Of a stretch of 40,915 nucleotides of DNA, positions 2,097 through 32,295 are shown one piece after another (within the stretch, counting starts at the first letter, position 1; every line of letters begins with the position of its first letter). Source of the stretch: a virus. Position numbers and translations under genes: made by a program. Location: positions 1 to 40,915 of the IMG/VR virus record IMGVR_UViG_3300025286_000038. One strand, written 5' to 3'. The notes under the pieces are model-generated. The model did no database searches. It was not told the origin of the DNA and saw only the letters and a list, made by a program, of their open reading frames with translations.

Positions 2097-2396
2097 TTGA
2101 AAAGAACCTACGTAGTAAGGGTAGTTGTTCAAAGCACAGATAAAGAGATGTTCCCCGGTCATTCAGATGACCCTAACAAAAATCTCTTTCTGTTCGTAGA
2201 ACAGCTACGCTATGCAGGGCTGGTGCACAGGCACAATATAGATACAAGGCTTGTGTTTGACATCTTGCCACCAGCTAAAGTAGAGTCCAAGGTCTGGGCC
2301 AAGCAGGTTGCTGAAAGGATGCAGACCTTTGGCTATAACGCAGAAGTCGCACCTAAATGGGAGGATGCCATGGAAGGAGTGGTCTATTCTGAATGA
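2097..2396 (+). CDS. Small hypothetical protein (99 aa), TTG start
   Basis: The TTG at 2097 is chosen because AAAGGAGGTGAGC precedes it; the frame stays open upstream to 2061. The product (MKRTYVVRVVVQSTDKEMFPG...) has a ferredoxin-like beta-alpha-beta feel: an N-terminal strand, DPNKNLFLFVEQLRYAG helix, RLVFDILPP strand, VWAKQVAERMQTFGYNAEV helix and strand. No catalytic motif is seen. Function unknown. Confidence 0.7.
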   Translation: MKRTYVVRVVVQSTDKEMFPGHSDDPNKNLFLFVEQLRYAGLVHRHNIDTRLVFDILPPAKVESKVWAKQVAERMQTFGYNAEVAPKWEDAMEGVVYSE

Positions 2397-2435
2397 GCAA
2401 GACCTTAAATTTAGAACGAAAGGAGGTGATACCTC

Positions 2436-2660
2436 ATGGCAAAGTGGCACCTGTGGATCGAGAGAGCAAAGGATGAATCTCGTCCCGAGGACATGTATTC
2501 ACTCGAGGAAAGCATAGTCTTAGATGATCAGACTTGCTCAGCCCTCATGTCAGTCCTCTGCGACAGGCACAAGCTCGAACAATATGGTGATCGTGCAGAG
2601 CAATCTCGTGATCGAAACAAGGTCAGGGTGTGGATTCAAAGGATGGAGGATGAGACATAG
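2436..2660 (+). CDS. Small hypothetical protein (74 aa)
   Basis: ATG preceded by AAAGGAGGTGATACCTC, one of the longest anti-16S-complementary sites in the window. The product (MAKWHLWIERAKDESRPEDM...) is charged and helical, with LMSVLCDRHKLEQYGDRAEQ. Unrecognised. It is the last gene of the first operon; a strong terminator begins 9 bp after its stop codon. Confidence 0.65.
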   Translation: MAKWHLWIERAKDESRPEDMYSLEESIVLDDQTCSALMSVLCDRHKLEQYGDRAEQSRDRNKVRVWIQRMEDET

Positions 2661-2668
2661 GAGAGGTC

Positions 2669-2707
2669 AGAGGTGGGAGGGAGAGATCCCTCCCGCCTCT
2701 CTTTTTC
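2669..2707 (+). terminator. Intrinsic terminator of the first early operon
   Basis: A 13-bp stem, GAGGTGGGAGGGA (2670-2682) with TCCCTCCCGCCTC (2687-2699) and one G-U pair, closes a GAGA tetraloop and is followed by CTTTTTCC. This is a textbook rho-independent terminator on the + strand. Confidence 0.9.
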
Positions 2708-2762
2708 CGTGATCAGATTTAAAGGCATAAGGATAACCAGGAAAGTTAGAAATAAGGTGTTC

Positions 2763-2785
2763 TAAACTTTCAAACTGAAATTTTA
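2763..2785. promoter_or_regulatory. Dispersed 23-bp dyad, site 1
   Basis: Half-sites TAAACTTTCA and TGAAATTTTA with spacer AAC. First of nine copies of the same dyad in the window. It lies between the terminator at 2669-2707 and the large inverted repeat, in non-coding DNA. Confidence 0.8.
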
Positions 2786-2831
2786 CCTGTATACGGCTAA
2801 AGTATTGTAAGACACCTACTTATATACACCG

Positions 2832-3138
2832 CTGGTCATCAGATACGCATAAGTGGTTCTAAAATCGGCATTTAGCCGTATTTACTACGCTGTGGGATAC
2901 TAGATGATACACCAAGAAAGACTAAGTAATACCAAGTCCAGGAGACCTCAGATCTCAGACCATAGACTTATAAAAATATATATAATATATATAGATATAT
3001 ATATATGTTGCTAAGGTTCTTTTCTTGGTATTACTTGGTATGACCTGGTATTTCTTGATCCGTCTAGGAGTATCCCAAGCCGTAGTAAATACGCCTATGT
3101 GTGGATTTTAGAATAGTTTAACCGTATCTGGCGACCAG
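2832..3138. repeat. 307-bp interrupted inverted repeat with AT-only core, candidate origin
   Basis: Two arms of just over 100 bp (2832-2936 and 3024-3138) are imperfect inverted copies. Matching blocks are CTGGTCATCAGATACG (2832-2847; 14 of 16 in 3123-3138), TTCTAAAATC (2857-2866/3104-3113), CGTATTTACTACG (2877-2889/3081-3093), GGGATACT (2894-2901/3069-3076) and AAGTAATACCAAG (2924-2936/3024-3036). The 87-bp centre contains an A/T run from 2968 to 3006 interrupted by a single G. An AT-rich unwinding element flanked by repeated boxes in the main non-coding gap of the early block is typical of a replication origin. This role is inferred. Confidence 0.75.
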
Positions 3139-3235
3139 AAGTGAAAATAACCTGTTGAGAGTCAACAACTTAGGCGTATTCACAGATGAACTTCGTAGTA
3201 CATGGTACTAACTAATACAAATGAAAAAAGTGCGT

Positions 3236-3294
3236 AACTTCAATAAAAACAACGACTTAAAGCCCTTGACATTTCCGGGGGAAATTCGTATATT
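3236..3294 (+). promoter_or_regulatory. Promoter P2, consensus sigma70
   Basis: TTGACA (3266-3271), 17-bp spacer, TATATT (3289-3294). The upstream block AACTTCAATAAAAACA plus GACTTAAA and the sequence around the -10 closely repeat those of promoter P1 at 359-416. It drives the gene run starting at 3390, with a leader of about 90 bases. Confidence 0.85.
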
Positions 3295-3389
3295 ATACAT
3301 GGTAGCAGGGTTCCACCCTTGACCGACAGGGTCACGCAACGAGGCCTCTGACCCAAGATGGTCAACACGAAGCGAGAGGAGGTATCAAG

Positions 3390-3743
3390 ATGGCAAAGCA
3401 AAACGGTAGTAAGGTATGCGAGATGTTGAAAGATCTCGGTCACGAGCTTTTCCAGCATGGTAATCCTGACTATGCGGCTTGGTTCTGTACTGAAGCAATC
3501 AAGCGGGGGCTCGAACCCAAGATCGAACCTCAAGGAGAGCTGGTAGAGGGAGAGGCCAAAAACTTCTGCACACAAGTGGAAGTGTTTTGTCCTTGGGGAG
3601 ACAGGGAAGAAGTACCGAAGGGTTTCCTGTCTTTTCTTCGGTATATCATATCCTCCACAGATGGTGAAGTGAAGTTCAAGGTCTACTCCCGTGGTGGAAG
3701 CGATGAGGTAGATGAAGGACTTGTTGTGGAGATAGAAACATGA
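3390..3743 (+). CDS. Hypothetical protein (117 aa)
   Basis: First gene after promoter P2, with ribosome binding site GAGGAGG and ATG at 3390. The N-terminal half is helical (VCEMLKDLGHELFQHGNPDYAAWF); the C-terminal half has beta-like segments (EVKFKVYSRGG). Not recognised. The next gene starts inside its stop codon (ATGA overlap), so the two are coupled. Confidence 0.75.
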   Translation: MAKQNGSKVCEMLKDLGHELFQHGNPDYAAWFCTEAIKRGLEPKIEPQGELVEGEAKNFCTQVEVFCPWGDREEVPKGFLSFLRYIISSTDGEVKFKVYSRGGSDEVDEGLVVEIET

Positions 3744-4129
3744 GAGACTATATCCACATAGGCCCCGTGCCCATTGACGAGAGCTGTGCTCAAGTGGGCC
3801 GAGCTAACTACCGAGCACAAGCTCGTATTGAATGTCGGGTGTTTAAGGAACAGCTTGAGCGTAAATTCCCAGATGGAGAATTTGTGGTCAAATCTTTTCC
3901 TCATGAATTCGGGACATACTTCGAGGTGGTTGCTTACTTCGAGGATGAGGAGAGAATAGATTTTAATTTCGGAACATACGAGGTAGATAGAGATGCCGAA
4001 GCTTTAAGGGCTAGGGAAGCTGCTTTCGAGGCCGAAGCCAACACGCCCACGAATTGGGACAAGGAGGCCAAGGCCAAGTTGGCAGACCTTAGTGATGACT
4101 ATCCCTTCGCGTTTAAAGTTTCAGAATGA
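3740..4129 (+). CDS. Hypothetical acidic protein (129 aa)
   Basis: ATGA overlap with the preceding gene at 3740. Acidic protein with an N-terminal CAQVGRANYRAQARIECRVF segment, two central strands (EFVVKSFPHEF, YFEVVAYFEDE) and an acidic helix rich in Ala/Glu. No family recognised. Its last codons and stop lie within dispersed dyad site 2, so the dyad constrains the C-terminus (FKVSE). Confidence 0.75.
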   Translation: MRDYIHIGPVPIDESCAQVGRANYRAQARIECRVFKEQLERKFPDGEFVVKSFPHEFGTYFEVVAYFEDEERIDFNFGTYEVDRDAEALRAREAAFEAEANTPTNWDKEAKAKLADLSDDYPFAFKVSE

Positions 4130-4136
4130 AAGTTTA
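4114..4136. promoter_or_regulatory. Dispersed 23-bp dyad, site 2
   Basis: Half-sites TAAAGTTTCA and TGAAAGTTTA with spacer GAA. It overlaps the stop codon of the upstream gene and directly precedes the folded leader at 4139-4230. Confidence 0.8.
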
Positions 4137-5607: not shown

Positions 5608-5812
5608 TAGCAAGTAGTATTAAGTAGTCCCATACGTATTTCTGTCGCCTTCATCCATTTTTCTCTTGACATTCAAGAAAAAATGTGGTATATTTGGAGT
5701 AGAAAACGAAACGAACATGGCCAAAACAAGACTATTGAAGCTCTAACCTCCCACATCCCTTCAACCCTTTTCATCTGAGTGTAAGACAAAGAACGAAGGA
5801 GGTGATAATCTA
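5608..5812 (+). promoter_or_regulatory. Promoter P3 region
   Basis: TTGACA (5666-5671), 17-bp spacer, TATATT (5689-5694): identical boxes and spacing to P2. The upstream AT-rich stretch AAGTAGTATTAAGTAGT (5613-5629) resembles the AGTACTAAGTAGTAG of the terminal repeat (28-42). The leader runs about 115 bases to the gene at 5813 with no other clear structure. Confidence 0.85.
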
Positions 5813-6058
5813 ATGGCTACCACAAAGTCTCATATCAGCAAAGAGGGTATTTCTGTTGAGGTTCCACAGTACGACTCTCTCGCGGAGGCAGTTGACGCTG
5901 ATGGGGAGGACACTGTCCTCAAAGGCTACAACCAGCATCGGTTCGACCGAGACAGTGTGAATGGAGTAAGGAAGCAGAAGACTCGGATCACACAGGCCCT
6001 GCTCAAGAATCCGGACCTTATGGCGCAGATTCAAGCGTCTATGGACGGAGATGAGTAA
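5813..6058 (+). CDS. Hypothetical protein (81 aa)
   Basis: ATG preceded by GAAGGAGGTGATAATC. The product begins MATTKSHISKEGISVEVPQY and includes EAVDADGEDTVLKGYNQHRF and a C-terminal helix TRITQALLKNPDLMAQIQAS. It is the only gene directly behind promoter P3 before a 250-bp gap, so it may be highly transcribed. No function can be assigned. Confidence 0.8.
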   Translation: MATTKSHISKEGISVEVPQYDSLAEAVDADGEDTVLKGYNQHRFDRDSVNGVRKQKTRITQALLKNPDLMAQIQASMDGDE

Positions 6059-6098: not shown

Positions 6099-6121
6099 CA
6101 AAGTTTCATTCTGAAAATTTA
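6099..6121. promoter_or_regulatory. Dispersed 23-bp dyad, site 3
   Basis: Half-sites CAAAGTTTCA and TGAAAATTTA with spacer TTC; the most diverged copy (outer base C instead of T). Lies in the gap between genes, 41 bp after the stop of the 81-aa gene. Confidence 0.75.
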
Positions 6122-12851: not shown

Positions 12852-15275
12852 GTGCCAGAGTTTTCTCCTCAAGACAAACGCTTCGTGCCTGTCTCTGGGC
12901 CCGAAGATGCTGATATCGTTATCCTCGGCGAGGCTCCAGGCAAGGAAGAAGCTATTAAAAAAGTCCCTTTTATCGGGGCTTCAGGTAGGCTGCTCTTTCA
13001 AGACATCCTCGCACAAGGAGGAATCAAAAGGGAGCAATGTCTCATAGGCAATGTTTCTCCTGTAATGCCTACAGGTGGACATTGGAGTTCCTTGAAAAAG
13101 ATGGGTGTGAACCTGCCCAATCTCTTTGCCGAGTGCAAGGCCTGGGTCCATGCCCATCCCCGCAAGCTGATCATCTGCTGCGGAGGAGAGGCCTTAACAT
13201 GCATGACTGGCAAAAAGGGCATAATGAATTACCGAGGTTCCTACCTCGAAGATTCCTTTGGCCAGACAGTTCTTCCTATGGTTCATCCTGCAGCCACACT
13301 CCGAGATTGGAAGTTCCTTTATCCATCAAGACACGATGCTAAAAGGGCCAAGTTCTTCTATGACCATCCAGACTTCGATACAGAACCCAGGTATCTGGTC
13401 ACCAAAAACCAGCGAATCATTAAGAGTCTTAAGACTAGAAAGGTTGTCGAAGAGGCTCACTCCGCTGACTATTTTATTGCAGAGCTGCGGAAACTCCAAG
13501 AAGCCACAATACTCTCTTACGACATAGAAACCTTTGCCGAGACTATTACCGTCTTTGGAGTTGCCAGCTCGCCCACCTATGCACTATCAATCCCTTTTAC
13601 CGGAGAGTTTTCTACCTATGATGAGGCTCGGCTTATCGAAGAAATCCGATCCCTCATGGCGAGTCCGATTCCTAAGGTTGCCCAAAATGGAGTCTATGAT
13701 AATACTTATCTTGCCCAAAATTGGGGCATCGAAGTCAAGGGCTTCGTTTGGGATACCATGCTTCTCCATCATAACTGCTACGCAGAACTTCCTCATGCAC
13801 TAGCTTTCATTGCATCCATATACACCTACGAACCTTTTTACAAAATGATGGCCAAGGAAGCTGATAGTGCTTCCTACGACAATGCACTCTGGGAATACAA
13901 TGCCCTTGACGTAGCTGTCACCCTCGAAGCTCTCAAGGGCCTACAAAGGGATGTCCGATCCTTGGGCGTAGAGAAGTTCTATTGGGACCATTACCTTCCT
14001 CTCACCTATGCCCTAGGTCGAATTCAATCTCATGGAATTCCCTTTGACCACAAGGAACGAGATAGAATTCTTACCGAAACCGAGACCCACCTAGAGCAAA
14101 AACGCAAGAGACTTTCTGATCTTGTGGGAGAAGAACTCAACGTCAATTCTCCTAAACAACTTAAAGACTACCTCTACTCTACTCTAGGCCTTACCCCTCA
14201 ATACAACCCTATGACTCAAGGGATCACTACTAATGAAGATGCCCTTCTTAAACTCCGTAAGAAAAATCCTCCCCATCAAGAGTTCTTCGACTTGGTCCTC
14301 GAGATACGAGGACTTGCTAAAACAAAATCCACCTACCTCCGACCACGATCTGGCTTGGAAGACCCAGACGGGCGAGTGCGAACATCTTACAATATTGCCG
14401 GATCAGCAAGGAAAGCTGCTGCTACTGGTGGCACAGAAACGGGAAGACTTAGTAGCTCAACAAACTGTTATGGGAGAGGAGGTAATCTGCAGAATGTCCC
14501 CAAGTGGCTCAGGAGTATGTATTGCTCTTCCCCTGCTTGGACCTTCTGGCAAGCGGATCTTAGTTCTGCCGAATCATATATTGTGGCATGGGATTCAGGC
14601 GAGGACAGTATGCTTCAAATACTGCAACGTCACGATCTCTATAAACCAGGGGCAGGACAAAAGATATTCTATCACGAATTCATTGGACATATCATCACCG
14701 GTTTGGATCTTAAAGATGTCAAAGGGGACTTTCGCGATCTGGCCAAAACTGTAGGGCATGGCTGGAACTACGGAATGGGCACAAGAAAGATGGTAGAAAC
14801 CGTGAACCTTCGCTTGCCCTCATTTCCCTTTGATCACAAGACTGCTGTGGAGTGTTACAATGCCTTGGATACAACGCTCAGTTCTATTACCAAGTGGCGC
14901 GAGACTATTCGTGAGAAGATCCGGACAAACCGAAGCCTGCGAAATTGCTTTGGTCGCCAACGGATATTCCTCGGACGATTCGATGAGGCAACTTTCCGAG
15001 AAGGTTTTGCGTTCATACCTCAATCAGAGGTTGGTGATTGGCTTAATAAGTGTCTTATTGAAACAGAAAGGAATTTTGACGGAAGAGTGGATGTGGAAAT
15101 CTTGGGTCAAGTCCATGACTCTATATTCGGCCAATGCAGAAATGGATCTTTGGATGAGGTCCAGCAAACTATCACCCAAATTTTACAGAGGCCTCTTCCA
15201 CGCCATATAGGCGGTGTGCAACTGAGGATACCATGTGAGTTCAAGAGTGGAGTTAATTGGAGGGAGGCGAGTTGA
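12852..15275 (+). CDS. Uracil-DNA glycosylase-DNA polymerase I fusion
   Basis: 807-aa replicative polymerase with three parts. Residues 1-180 match family 4-type uracil-DNA glycosylase: GEAPG (26-30), PFIGASGRLL (39-48) and HPAATLR (145-151). The usual N-terminal Cys pair of the Fe-S form is absent. Residues 215-360 are the 3'-5' exonuclease with DIE (224-226), NGVYD (279-283) and YNALD (349-353), all intact. The family A polymerase has TGRLSSS near 530, motif A DLSSAES (from D569), motif B R628 to NYG (639-641) and motif C VHDS (D756). Motif C has Ser in place of the usual Glu. GTG start, coupled to the preceding gene. No 5'-3' exonuclease domain. It carries out phage DNA synthesis; the glycosylase part may sense uracil. 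Confidence 0.92.
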   Translation: MPEFSPQDKRFVPVSGPEDADIVILGEAPGKEEAIKKVPFIGASGRLLFQDILAQGGIKREQCLIGNVSPVMPTGGHWSSLKKMGVNLPNLFAECKAWVHAHPRKLIICCGGEALTCMTGKKGIMNYRGSYLEDSFGQTVLPMVHPAATLRDWKFLYPSRHDAKRAKFFYDHPDFDTEPRYLVTKNQRIIKSLKTRKVVEEAHSADYFIAELRKLQEATILSYDIETFAETITVFGVASSPTYALSIPFTGEFSTYDEARLIEEIRSLMASPIPKVAQNGVYDNTYLAQNWGIEVKGFVWDTMLLHHNCYAELPHALAFIASIYTYEPFYKMMAKEADSASYDNALWEYNALDVAVTLEALKGLQRDVRSLGVEKFYWDHYLPLTYALGRIQSHGIPFDHKERDRILTETETHLEQKRKRLSDLVGEELNVNSPKQLKDYLYSTLGLTPQYNPMTQGITTNEDALLKLRKKNPPHQEFFDLVLEIRGLAKTKSTYLRPRSGLEDPDGRVRTSYNIAGSARKAAATGGTETGRLSSSTNCYGRGGNLQNVPKWLRSMYCSSPAWTFWQADLSSAESYIVAWDSGEDSMLQILQRHDLYKPGAGQKIFYHEFIGHIITGLDLKDVKGDFRDLAKTVGHGWNYGMGTRKMVETVNLRLPSFPFDHKTAVECYNALDTTLSSITKWRETIREKIRTNRSLRNCFGRQRIFLGRFDEATFREGFAFIPQSEVGDWLNKCLIETERNFDGRVDVEILGQVHDSIFGQCRNGSLDEVQQTITQILQRPLPRHIGGVQLRIPCEFKSGVNWREAS

Positions 15276-15481
15276 ACAATCGGAGACCTGAGGATGAGGA
15301 TGCTGGGCCAATCATGATTGACACAAAGGCCTTTGTACAAAGACTAAAGTATTCAGGAGAGAGATGGATAGTTCTAGTAGATGATGGAGCTATGCCCATT
15401 ATTGGTAGGGGCTGGACATTTGCACAAGCCCTTGACTACATCATTGAAGAATTTCTAGAAGAAGAAGATTACGAAGAATGA
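15272..15481 (+). CDS. Small acidic protein (69 aa), TTG start
   Basis: TTG 15272 overlaps the polymerase stop (TTGA) and has GGAGGG upstream. The product includes a strand-turn-strand (ERWIVLVDDGAMPIIGRG) and a C-terminal acidic tail EEFLEEEDYEE. ATGA overlap with the next gene. It is locked between the polymerase and DUF3987 genes, so it may be a replisome accessory. No family recognised. Confidence 0.7.
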   Translation: MNNRRPEDEDAGPIMIDTKAFVQRLKYSGERWIVLVDDGAMPIIGRGWTFAQALDYIIEEFLEEEDYEE

Positions 15482-16662
15482 GTAACTCTATTCCTGACGA
15501 CTTCATCAGACGTTACTTACTCTACACAGCAGCTCACGAATCCCCTCGCTGCTATCATCAATGGATAGCTATAGGGATTATTGGCGCTAGCTTAGGTAGA
15601 CGAGTAGTTCTTGATATGGGGCACTATCGTGTCTTCCCTAATAATTTTATAATCCTGACCTCAGGCTCTGCCGAGTGTCGGAAGGGAGGCGCGATGGATA
15701 TGGGTATAGACATCCTGAGAGAACACACAGAGACACATCTCTTCGAGGGCAAGATTACTTTAGAAAAGATGTATCAAGAGATGAGTAAAAAGATTGCTCC
15801 GCAACAGGGGGTTGTTGCGGAGACACCATCAATTCCTCTCGTAATCTACGCAGATGAACTTGCAGTGTTTCTCCACAGAAACGCCCAACAAGCAGGCTTG
15901 CCTTCGGTCCTCTGCACACTTTATACCAACCCCCCTAAGCACGATTACAGAACTAAAACCGCTGGATCTTCCTACCTCATCAAACCTTCTATCAACATCC
16001 TTTCGACTACCCAACCTGCCTGGATGCAGAGAAACCTTTCACAAGAGACTTTTGAAGAAGGGCTTGTAGGGAGGCTCTTGCCCATTTATGCTGATAAGCC
16101 AAGAAGTAGAGTTACCATGCATAACATTACTGCAAAGGAAAAGGGACTACAAAAACTCTTAGCTGCTCAGCTTAATGGGATAAGTAAGATCGAGGGAAAC
16201 TTTAGGCTTACAGGAAATGCATTGAAGGTCTACGATGAATGGTACCAAACAAGGAAGGCTCCTAAGGATGGTGAGGTCGAGAAGATCTGCGGATTTTGGG
16301 GAAGGGAACATGCCCATGTTTTAAAGACCGCTATGATCTTTGCGCTGAGTACTGGGAATCAGCTTCAGATCTCGGATGGAAACCTATCTGCCGCCATCGA
16401 GGCAGTAAGGGAAGTAAGGGAAACCCTTCCCTATGCCCTAAAGGGTGGTGGTGCAGAACAAGATGTGCAACACATCAGTCTTGTTCTTAATGAGCTTAAG
16501 AATCACGGAGGGCCTATGTCCTACGAACAGCTTGGTCAGAAGTTATGGAGGCACATGGGAAGCACAAAGATGGAAGAGGCTATAGATAGCCTAATCAAGT
16601 ATGGGAAGATAGTTCCACATAGACCAGAGGGATCACAAAGGCTTTATTTTATAGTAGTCTAA
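15478..16662 (+). CDS. DUF3987-type ATPase, probable replication helicase-like protein
   Basis: 394-aa protein resembling the DUF3987 group, often linked to phage or plasmid primase-helicases. A degenerate Walker A, SGSAECRKGG (62-71), has Lys but is followed by Gly instead of Ser/Thr. Walker B is intact: LVIYADELAVFL with D126-E127. The signature FWGREHAHVLKTAMIFAL lies near 280. A C-terminal winged-helix-like region (NHGGPMSYEQLGQKLWRH) follows. No primase domain is seen here or elsewhere in the window. It probably acts at the replication fork with the polymerase. ATP use is unsure given the odd Walker A. Last gene of the early block. Confidence 0.75.
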   Translation: MSNSIPDDFIRRYLLYTAAHESPRCYHQWIAIGIIGASLGRRVVLDMGHYRVFPNNFIILTSGSAECRKGGAMDMGIDILREHTETHLFEGKITLEKMYQEMSKKIAPQQGVVAETPSIPLVIYADELAVFLHRNAQQAGLPSVLCTLYTNPPKHDYRTKTAGSSYLIKPSINILSTTQPAWMQRNLSQETFEEGLVGRLLPIYADKPRSRVTMHNITAKEKGLQKLLAAQLNGISKIEGNFRLTGNALKVYDEWYQTRKAPKDGEVEKICGFWGREHAHVLKTAMIFALSTGNQLQISDGNLSAAIEAVREVRETLPYALKGGGAEQDVQHISLVLNELKNHGGPMSYEQLGQKLWRHMGSTKMEEAIDSLIKYGKIVPHRPEGSQRLYFIVV

Positions 16663-16682
16663 AATTTCAAACTGAAAGTTTA
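16660..16682. promoter_or_regulatory. Dispersed 23-bp dyad, site 5, at the convergent junction
   Basis: Half-sites TAAAATTTCA and TGAAAGTTTA with spacer AAC. The first three bases are the TAA stop of the + strand gene and the last three are the complement of the TAA stop of the - strand gene, so the dyad fills the 17-bp gap between the two convergent blocks exactly. No intrinsic terminator is visible in either direction here. Confidence 0.85.
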
Positions 16683-24412: not shown

Positions 24413-24435
24413 TAAACTTTCATTATGAAACTTTA
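24413..24435. promoter_or_regulatory. Dispersed 23-bp dyad, site 6
   Basis: Half-sites TAAACTTTCA and TGAAACTTTA with spacer TTA. On the - strand it ends directly at the AAAGGAGG of the 98-aa gene, 13 bp from its start codon. Confidence 0.8.
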
Positions 24436-32272: not shown

Positions 32273-32295
32273 TAAAGTTTCATTATGAAATTTTA
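32273..32295. promoter_or_regulatory. Dispersed 23-bp dyad, site 7
   Basis: Half-sites TAAAGTTTCA and TGAAATTTTA with spacer TTA. On the - strand it directly precedes AAAAAGGGGAGAG, the ribosome binding site of the 96-aa gene. Confidence 0.8.

Follow-up and report, generated by a model that had tools for sequence, protein, structure and literature searches.

The stretch of DNA analyzed here, the window, spans positions 1 to 40,915 of IMG/VR virus record IMGVR_UViG_3300025286_000038. Early genes occupy the plus strand up to position 16662, and late genes are encoded on the minus strand from position 16680. The window encodes a Sak4-like annealing protein, a PD-(D/E)XK exonuclease, a ParB-domain methyltransferase, a PolA with a UDG domain, and a DUF3987 protein; many early proteins could not be assigned to a family. 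No open reading frame of at least 60 amino acids was found between positions 2713 and 3239; the initial annotation had described the region from 2832 to 3138 as gene-free and proposed it as a candidate origin of replication. The features discussed below are as follows:

2669-2700, plus strand: terminator-like hairpin upstream of the element, with a 14-pair stem, a 4-nt loop, and a T-rich tail
2779-2937, no strand: left arm of the inverted repeat, pairing with 3033-3193
2909-2936, minus strand: left inner repeats, ACCAAG units spaced by 10 bp
2968-3006, no strand: AT core, the most AT-rich 40-mer of the genome
3024-3060, plus strand: right inner repeats, TTGGTAT units spaced by 10 bp (direct repeat family D1)
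3033-3193, no strand: right arm of the inverted repeat, partner of 2779-2937
3266-3294, plus strand: sigma-70-type promoter, TTGACA-17-TATATT, 11 of 12 consensus positions matched
12852-15275, plus strand: family A DNA polymerase (PolA) with an N-terminal UDG-superfamily domain (PF00476, 1.1e-42; PF03167, 4.4e-18; phrog_17, 1.3e-89)
15478-16662, plus strand: DUF3987 protein, 394 amino acids (PF13148, 3.8e-13; phrog_14296, 5.3e-43)

Local alignment of the left flank with the reverse-complemented right flank matched the two arms at 76% of positions (121/159), with a score of 82. The runner-up among approximately 790 other inverted-repeat centers in the window scored 29, and the highest score among 500 dinucleotide shuffles was 30. 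When the region was compared with its own genome by BLAST, a minus-strand match covered positions 2820 to 3150 (E value, 5.9e-28; 69% identity). Arms and AT core together form an element of 415 bases, which is the sole large inverted repeat of the genome and coincides with its AT maximum. Its anatomy and its excess over chance were observed directly. The inverted repeat annotated initially at positions 2832 to 3138 is real and actually bigger, those coordinates delimiting its better-conserved inner part. The initial annotation gave arms of about 105 to 115 bp; the full arms reach up to 160 bp. The identical blocks of up to 13 bases were recovered, the longest being CGTATTTACTACG at 2877-2889 and 3081-3093. 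The core had been described as consisting of A and T only; the A/T run is there, with a single G breaking it at position 2994. Both flanking signals, terminator and promoter, were also found as described, and the promoter lies 73 bp downstream of the element.

Six copies of a 10-bp box, TTAGNCGTAT, with one mismatch at most, are located in the arms and are mirror-arranged in both position and orientation, with spacings of 52 and 29 bp on the left and 29 and 52 bp on the right:

2791-2800, minus strand: box 1, TTAGCCGTAT, exact match to TTAGNCGTAT
2843-2852, minus strand: box 2, TTATGCGTAT, one mismatch, 52 bp from box 1
2872-2881, plus strand: box 3, TTAGCCGTAT, exact match, 29 bp from box 2
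3089-3098, minus strand: box 4, ATAGGCGTAT, one mismatch, mirrors box 3
3118-3127, plus strand: box 5, TTAACCGTAT, one mismatch, mirrors box 2
3170-3179, plus strand: box 6, TTAGGCGTAT, exact match, mirrors box 1

Lying within 390 bp, these boxes represent half of the 12 copies of TTAGNCGTAT in the genome. Only three of them can be counted as independent, because the two arms copy each other. Two criteria for an origin, multiple initiator boxes and an adjoining AT-rich tract, are satisfied, with the tract being the AT maximum of the genome. That the core serves as a DNA-unwinding element is inferred; there are no data on unwinding itself. The inner TTGGTAT-type repeats, with their 10-bp spacing, sit closer to the core than the boxes. 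An apparent compensatory change within the arms (ATACGGCTAAA/TTTAGCCGTAT versus ATACGCCTATG/CTTAGGCGTAT) was rejected, since it arises from a single box recurring in both orientations. A 17-base iteron pattern matched 37 IMG/VR sequences, most of them without an inverted repeat at the matching site; one of the matched contigs, G003, is a PolA-DUF3987 relative whose own element lies at a position other than that of the match.

The closest relative with the same replication module, viral contig IMGVR_UViG_3300025286_000098 (here G001), was found with a PolA alignment and encodes a polymerase 69% identical to that of the window. Its best inverted repeat (5502-5555/5638-5691) is at the corresponding place and surrounds its own AT maximum. 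This repeat lies upstream of a stretch (5805-5841) that is 86% identical to window positions 3224 to 3260, just upstream of the promoter. No useful alignment was obtained between the arms of the two phages. Four of the nine G001 copies of TTAGNCGTAT fall inside the G001 element, where 0.07 would be expected (P = 9.4e-7), and their spacings of 29 bp and about 81 bp match those of the window. We counted this test as independent because the motif was derived from the repeats of the window; it should be noted that the box was nevertheless first noticed by comparing the window with G001. The box and the promoter region are thus observed to be shared although the arms cannot be aligned; it is the arms that turn over, whereas the symmetry, the box, the core, and the promoter region persist. 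The initial annotation held that free divergence of the blocks between relatives would refute an origin. The arms do diverge, yet they remain matched within each phage and the 10-bp box is shared with G001, so that divergence of the blocks is the wrong refuting test.

The comparison with relatives that had been suggested was extended to 50 genomes carrying the PolA module (35 IMG/VR contigs, 13 named phages, G001, and the window), 49 of which have a DUF3987 gene. Genomes were oriented by polA and then scanned. The best inverted repeat scored at least 40 in 29 genomes, and in 24 of these it was located 9 to 15.5 kb upstream of polA by circular distance, compared with an expectation by length of 15% (P = 8e-16). 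This interval was chosen after inspection of the data, and the relatives share ancestry and are not statistically independent. Example scores are 127 for G031, 102 for G016, 98 for G042, 76 for ctLwi270, 62 for ctMlz233, and 60 for vir526. Culturable relatives with an element include Microcystis phage Mel-JY34 (near 44.1 to 44.3 kb) and Vibrio phage VS-ABTNL-3 (40.67 to 40.79 kb). A 30-mer as AT-rich as the maximum of the respective genome was present in 24 of 31 elements, and an A/T run of at least 8 in 21 of 31 (0.12 expected). In 27 of the 50 genomes, the 40-mer with the highest AT content and the best repeat were separated by no more than 300 bp. Arms from different phages were mostly unrelated, with a median cross-score of 16 and a best pair, G009/G012, of 74. 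The coincidence of repeat and AT maximum, with differing sequences, is therefore an observed regularity at the corresponding place in dozens of relatives; these distantly related phages keep the same design despite arms that cannot be aligned.

No such large repeat was found in six control phages without a recognized DUF3987, whose best scores were 27 to 31, with one of 37 that had a short loop. The controls were five PolA phages (Muddy, HippoPololi, PMBT14, P744, and ctfzr933, the last also belonging to the 50-genome set) and ctEqG8, a relative by its portal protein. The element is not universal among carriers of the module: in several contigs and in the 119X/PaP2 group, repeats are weak or do not coincide with an AT maximum, and 119X/PaP2 phages possess just a modest repeat away from it. 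As regards membership in Fredfastierviridae, judged by gene-level kinship with Jamesmcgillvirus, PolA and the DUF3987 protein were only 24 to 25% identical to those of 119X; the layout is shared, but the relationship is distant. Scans for close relatives with Sak4 and with PolA alone found none, the DUF3987 alignment A2 was too variable for scanning, and a near-mode DNA comparison of named phages with the first 20 kb of the window gave no match. Aeromonas phage P5 (L021) carries at least four inverted repeats of approximately 105 to 150 bp with GC-rich loops, dispersed over its genome (4958-5106, 12123-12229, 17973-18096, and 37981-38090).

The initial annotation stated that no replication initiator gene was evident. 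This is probably wrong, as the predicted fold of the DUF3987 protein marks it as the likely initiator. Its AlphaFold2 model (pLDDT 90.5, 39-sequence alignment) contains an AAA+ core, in which we read a beta hairpin (residues 154 to 168) preceding the sensor-1 strand, and a C-terminal winged helix, which we placed at residues 349 to 392 from the secondary structure; all of this is prediction only. MCM helicases were the top structural matches of the model with Foldseek and VIA-align (E value, 2.8e-9). VIA-align superimposed it on a human MCM chain over 338 residues, winged helix included (Z score, 20.9; root mean square deviation [rmsd], 8.3), and on the MCM of 6mii over 279 residues (Z score, 20.5; rmsd, 4.2). 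Pfam assigned DUF3987 only and no MCM family, and a PDB search with the sequence returned only weak, unrelated matches. The N-terminal tier of MCM proteins (OB fold, zinc) is absent: residue 4 aligns with about residue 324 of MCM, and the protein starts at the motor region. On the basis of the model, we predict it to be an AAA+ helicase of MCM-like build that ends in a winged helix and, with box binding inferred, regard it as a candidate self-loading initiator helicase. It is likely, with odds somewhat better than even, that this protein reads the boxes, for which there are no binding data. For the homologue in phage PaMx41, annotators recorded a resemblance to archaeal ORC2. In a 2018 survey of primase families, DUF3987 was predicted to be a helicase domain found in mobile elements (PMC5862659), and in PICMI satellites, which their discoverers define by DUF3987 plus DUF5906, the primase gene promotes satellite replication (PMC10803314).

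No primase of the DnaG or AEP type turned up in the scan of early proteins. Between the PolA and DUF3987 genes lies a 74-amino-acid open reading frame, missing from some relatives, for which an MP-like role is speculation. The polymerase alignment suggests that relatives share the N-terminal UDG-superfamily domain.

Taken together, the element is very likely an origin of replication (probability of about 0.85), although replication was not measured. The earlier proposal of a candidate origin remains the best reading of the only large inverted repeat, which coincides with the AT maximum, a coincidence that recurs in dozens of relatives. We have good confidence in the fuller statement that it is this phage's origin, belongs to an origin type common to phages with the PolA-DUF3987 module, and is recognized through its boxes by the DUF3987 helicase, a function that is inferred. 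According to the proposed mechanism, the C-terminal winged helix would bind boxes in both mirror-image arms, and each arm would load one helicase ring, with the rings facing each other. The AT core would melt between the opposed rings, which would then depart in opposite directions while the phage PolA copies the strands. The upstream terminator and downstream promoter may keep transcription out of the core at initiation. Pairing of protein and boxes as well as bidirectionality are inferences. A GC-skew plot, proposed earlier as a check, speaks against the origin reading in the window, where skew follows gene strand, changing sign at the gene-strand switches and not at the element. Mean skew over 30 genomes rises modestly across the element, from 0.00 to 0.09 (P = 0.011), a result confounded by gene direction.

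Among the alternatives, it is possible, if rather unlikely, that the element is an origin whose boxes are bound by another protein, such as the ParB-domain methyltransferase (10829-12292), an unannotated early protein, or a host factor, with the DUF3987 helicase merely recruited. A ParB-N domain is indeed encoded (PF02195, 1.9e-11), many early proteins lack a family, and helicase-box binding rests on inference only; however, a winged helix is predicted in the DUF3987 protein itself, the element is missing in all six control phages without a recognized DUF3987, and the ParB-domain gene is not annotated in every relative. A two-sided operator for early promoters is improbable. It would fit the good promoter 73 bp downstream and the TTGGTAYTAC-like repeats that occur also at the late/early junction, but it leaves unexplained both arms of up to 160 bp and the AT maximum in the core of most relatives, and the left-facing side has no convincing promoter.

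We regard a packaging (pac) or genome-end site as very improbable. Small terminase genes are often near pac, and the element is about 3.2 kb, across the contig junction, from such a gene (39750-40496, weak phrog_2538 match). However, across 13.1 kb of the late region, terminase genes included, contig G045 and the window share 98.9% identity, and the 25.6 kb of G045 contain neither a large repeat nor a box cluster; this terminase therefore does not require the element beside it, which speaks against a role in packaging. The contig end repeat (1-179/40737-40915) also lies away from the element. Least credible of all is a structured RNA. As RNA, positions 2779 to 3195 fold far better than shuffles (z score, −10.9), but any inverted repeat of such size does so, the other strand folds alike (z score, −9.9), no Rfam family was matched, and a terminator stands upstream with no convincing promoter reading in. 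Folded as single-stranded DNA, the individual arms did no better than shuffles (z scores of −0.4 and −1.3), and per-arm hairpins were rejected; with no RNA family matched, this favors protein sites in duplex DNA over hairpins. An N15-type telomere site was rejected, as the arms pair imperfectly, are 95 bp apart, and no protelomerase was matched in the families scanned. A T7-type transcription-primed origin was also rejected, with no RNA polymerase among the proteins scanned.

The origin reading has precedents. In archaeal Orc1/Cdc6-MCM origins, inverted origin boxes flank an AT-rich unwinding element and the motor is of the MCM type. The phage shares inverted boxes around an AT-rich element and an MCM-type motor, whereas Orc1/Cdc6 was not found in it and its protein lacks the MCM N-terminal tier. 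The SV40 origin combines a dyad of boxes with an AT tract and opposed helicase hexamers. A box dyad and AT tract link the phage element to SV40 large T and papilloma E1, with opposed hexamers only proposed for the phage; those proteins differ in being SF3 helicases of eukaryotic viruses with an N-terminal DNA-binding domain (PMC7581432). SaPI Rep is a self-loading helicase that binds its iteron origin via a C-terminal domain (PMC7581432, citing Ubeda 2007), so that a mobile-element helicase reads short origin repeats, apparently as two hexamers. The criterion of an AAA+ helicase with a C-terminal DNA-binding domain is satisfied by the AlphaFold2 model of the phage protein. In contrast to SaPIs, the repeats are mirror boxes around an AT core in a tailed phage. 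SaPI Reps carry DUF927 or Primase_Cterm/D5 domains instead of DUF3987, and the SaPI origin lies beside the helicase gene, whereas the phage helicase gene (15.5 to 16.7 kb) is about 12 kb from the element (2.8 to 3.2 kb).

SCCmec Cch2, which is possibly self-loading, recognizes origin repeats with its C-terminal domain, and the family A polymerase encoded along with it carries out priming jointly with a small protein (PMC7581432). The Cch2-CCPol-MP module resembles that of the phage in that an origin-binding 3'-5' helicase and a family A polymerase have adjoining genes, without a classical primase found (PMC7581432). The phage differs in that its PolA has UDG and 3'-5' exonuclease domains, there is no proven MP counterpart, and the helicase family is another one; moreover, Cch2 binds direct repeats, its inverted repeats being dispensable for binding (PMC7581432). 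The PLE RepA origin, from a satellite of phage ICP1, is also phage associated, with semi-palindromic iterons and a poly-A tract, but has a RepA_N initiator and repeated short semi-palindromes instead of a single large inverted repeat (PMC7145576). An iteron/dyad origin with a probable self-loading helicase is thus known in kind. New are the mirror-arranged boxes, the MCM-like phage motor, the distance from the helicase gene, and a plan kept without its sequence. None of the literature searched was found to describe this origin, with subscription journals mostly outside the search.

More tentatively, and with the odds somewhat against it, one may envisage a widespread class of phage origin in which a tier-less MCM-like helicase self-loads as opposed rings on mirror box arrays around the AT maximum, while both priming and copying fall to a family A polymerase, with no dedicated primase; this class would be for bacterial viruses what the MCM double-hexamer system is for archaea and eukaryotes. 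If our reading of the element is right, it provides a large and mostly uncultured group of phages with an origin and a likely initiator, and it offers minimal MCM-type systems (one 394-residue motor and one 400-bp origin) in which to study DNA melting by opposed rings. Such origins could be located by a simple computational rule, namely, that the largest inverted repeat is the AT maximum upstream of polA. As arms match within each phage and differ between phages, a swap test is possible.

Contig G045 is also 90 to 91% identical to the window over most of positions 440 to 2368, after which the sequence is replaced. This suggests, without showing it, that the element and the replication genes are exchanged together; the G045 contig lacks its polymerase region. 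The interval from 2369 to 3726 and most of the early region are replaced by other genes in L007/G045, which is early-module mosaicism, and the replacement genes include one for a 514-amino-acid AAA+ (clamp-loader-like) protein.

Palindromes like AAAGTTTCATTATGAAACTTTA (TTTCA-NNN-TGAAA) occur at nine places, mostly intergenic and including the convergent early/late junction (2766-2785, 4114-4136, 6102-6121, 10349-10371, 16660-16682, 24413-24435, 32273-32295, 39108-39127, and 40671-40690); they are possibly terminators or operators. At the divergent late/early junction, clusters of TACTTNGTAC/TACTACGTAGTAC-type repeats, common to relatives G001 to G003, may constitute a regulatory or packaging region (window, 1-100 and 40737-40840; G001, 3393-3660; L026, 4294-4700; L035, 6050-6440), and these repeats resemble the inner repeats of the origin. 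Fragment L005 spans the contig join with 1,533 bases at 99.7%, indicating that the genome is circular or terminally redundant. A 179-base repeat joins the contig ends (1-179 and 40737-40915); its two copies differ at five positions, clustered at 127-146, and these mismatches are probably contig-end errors.
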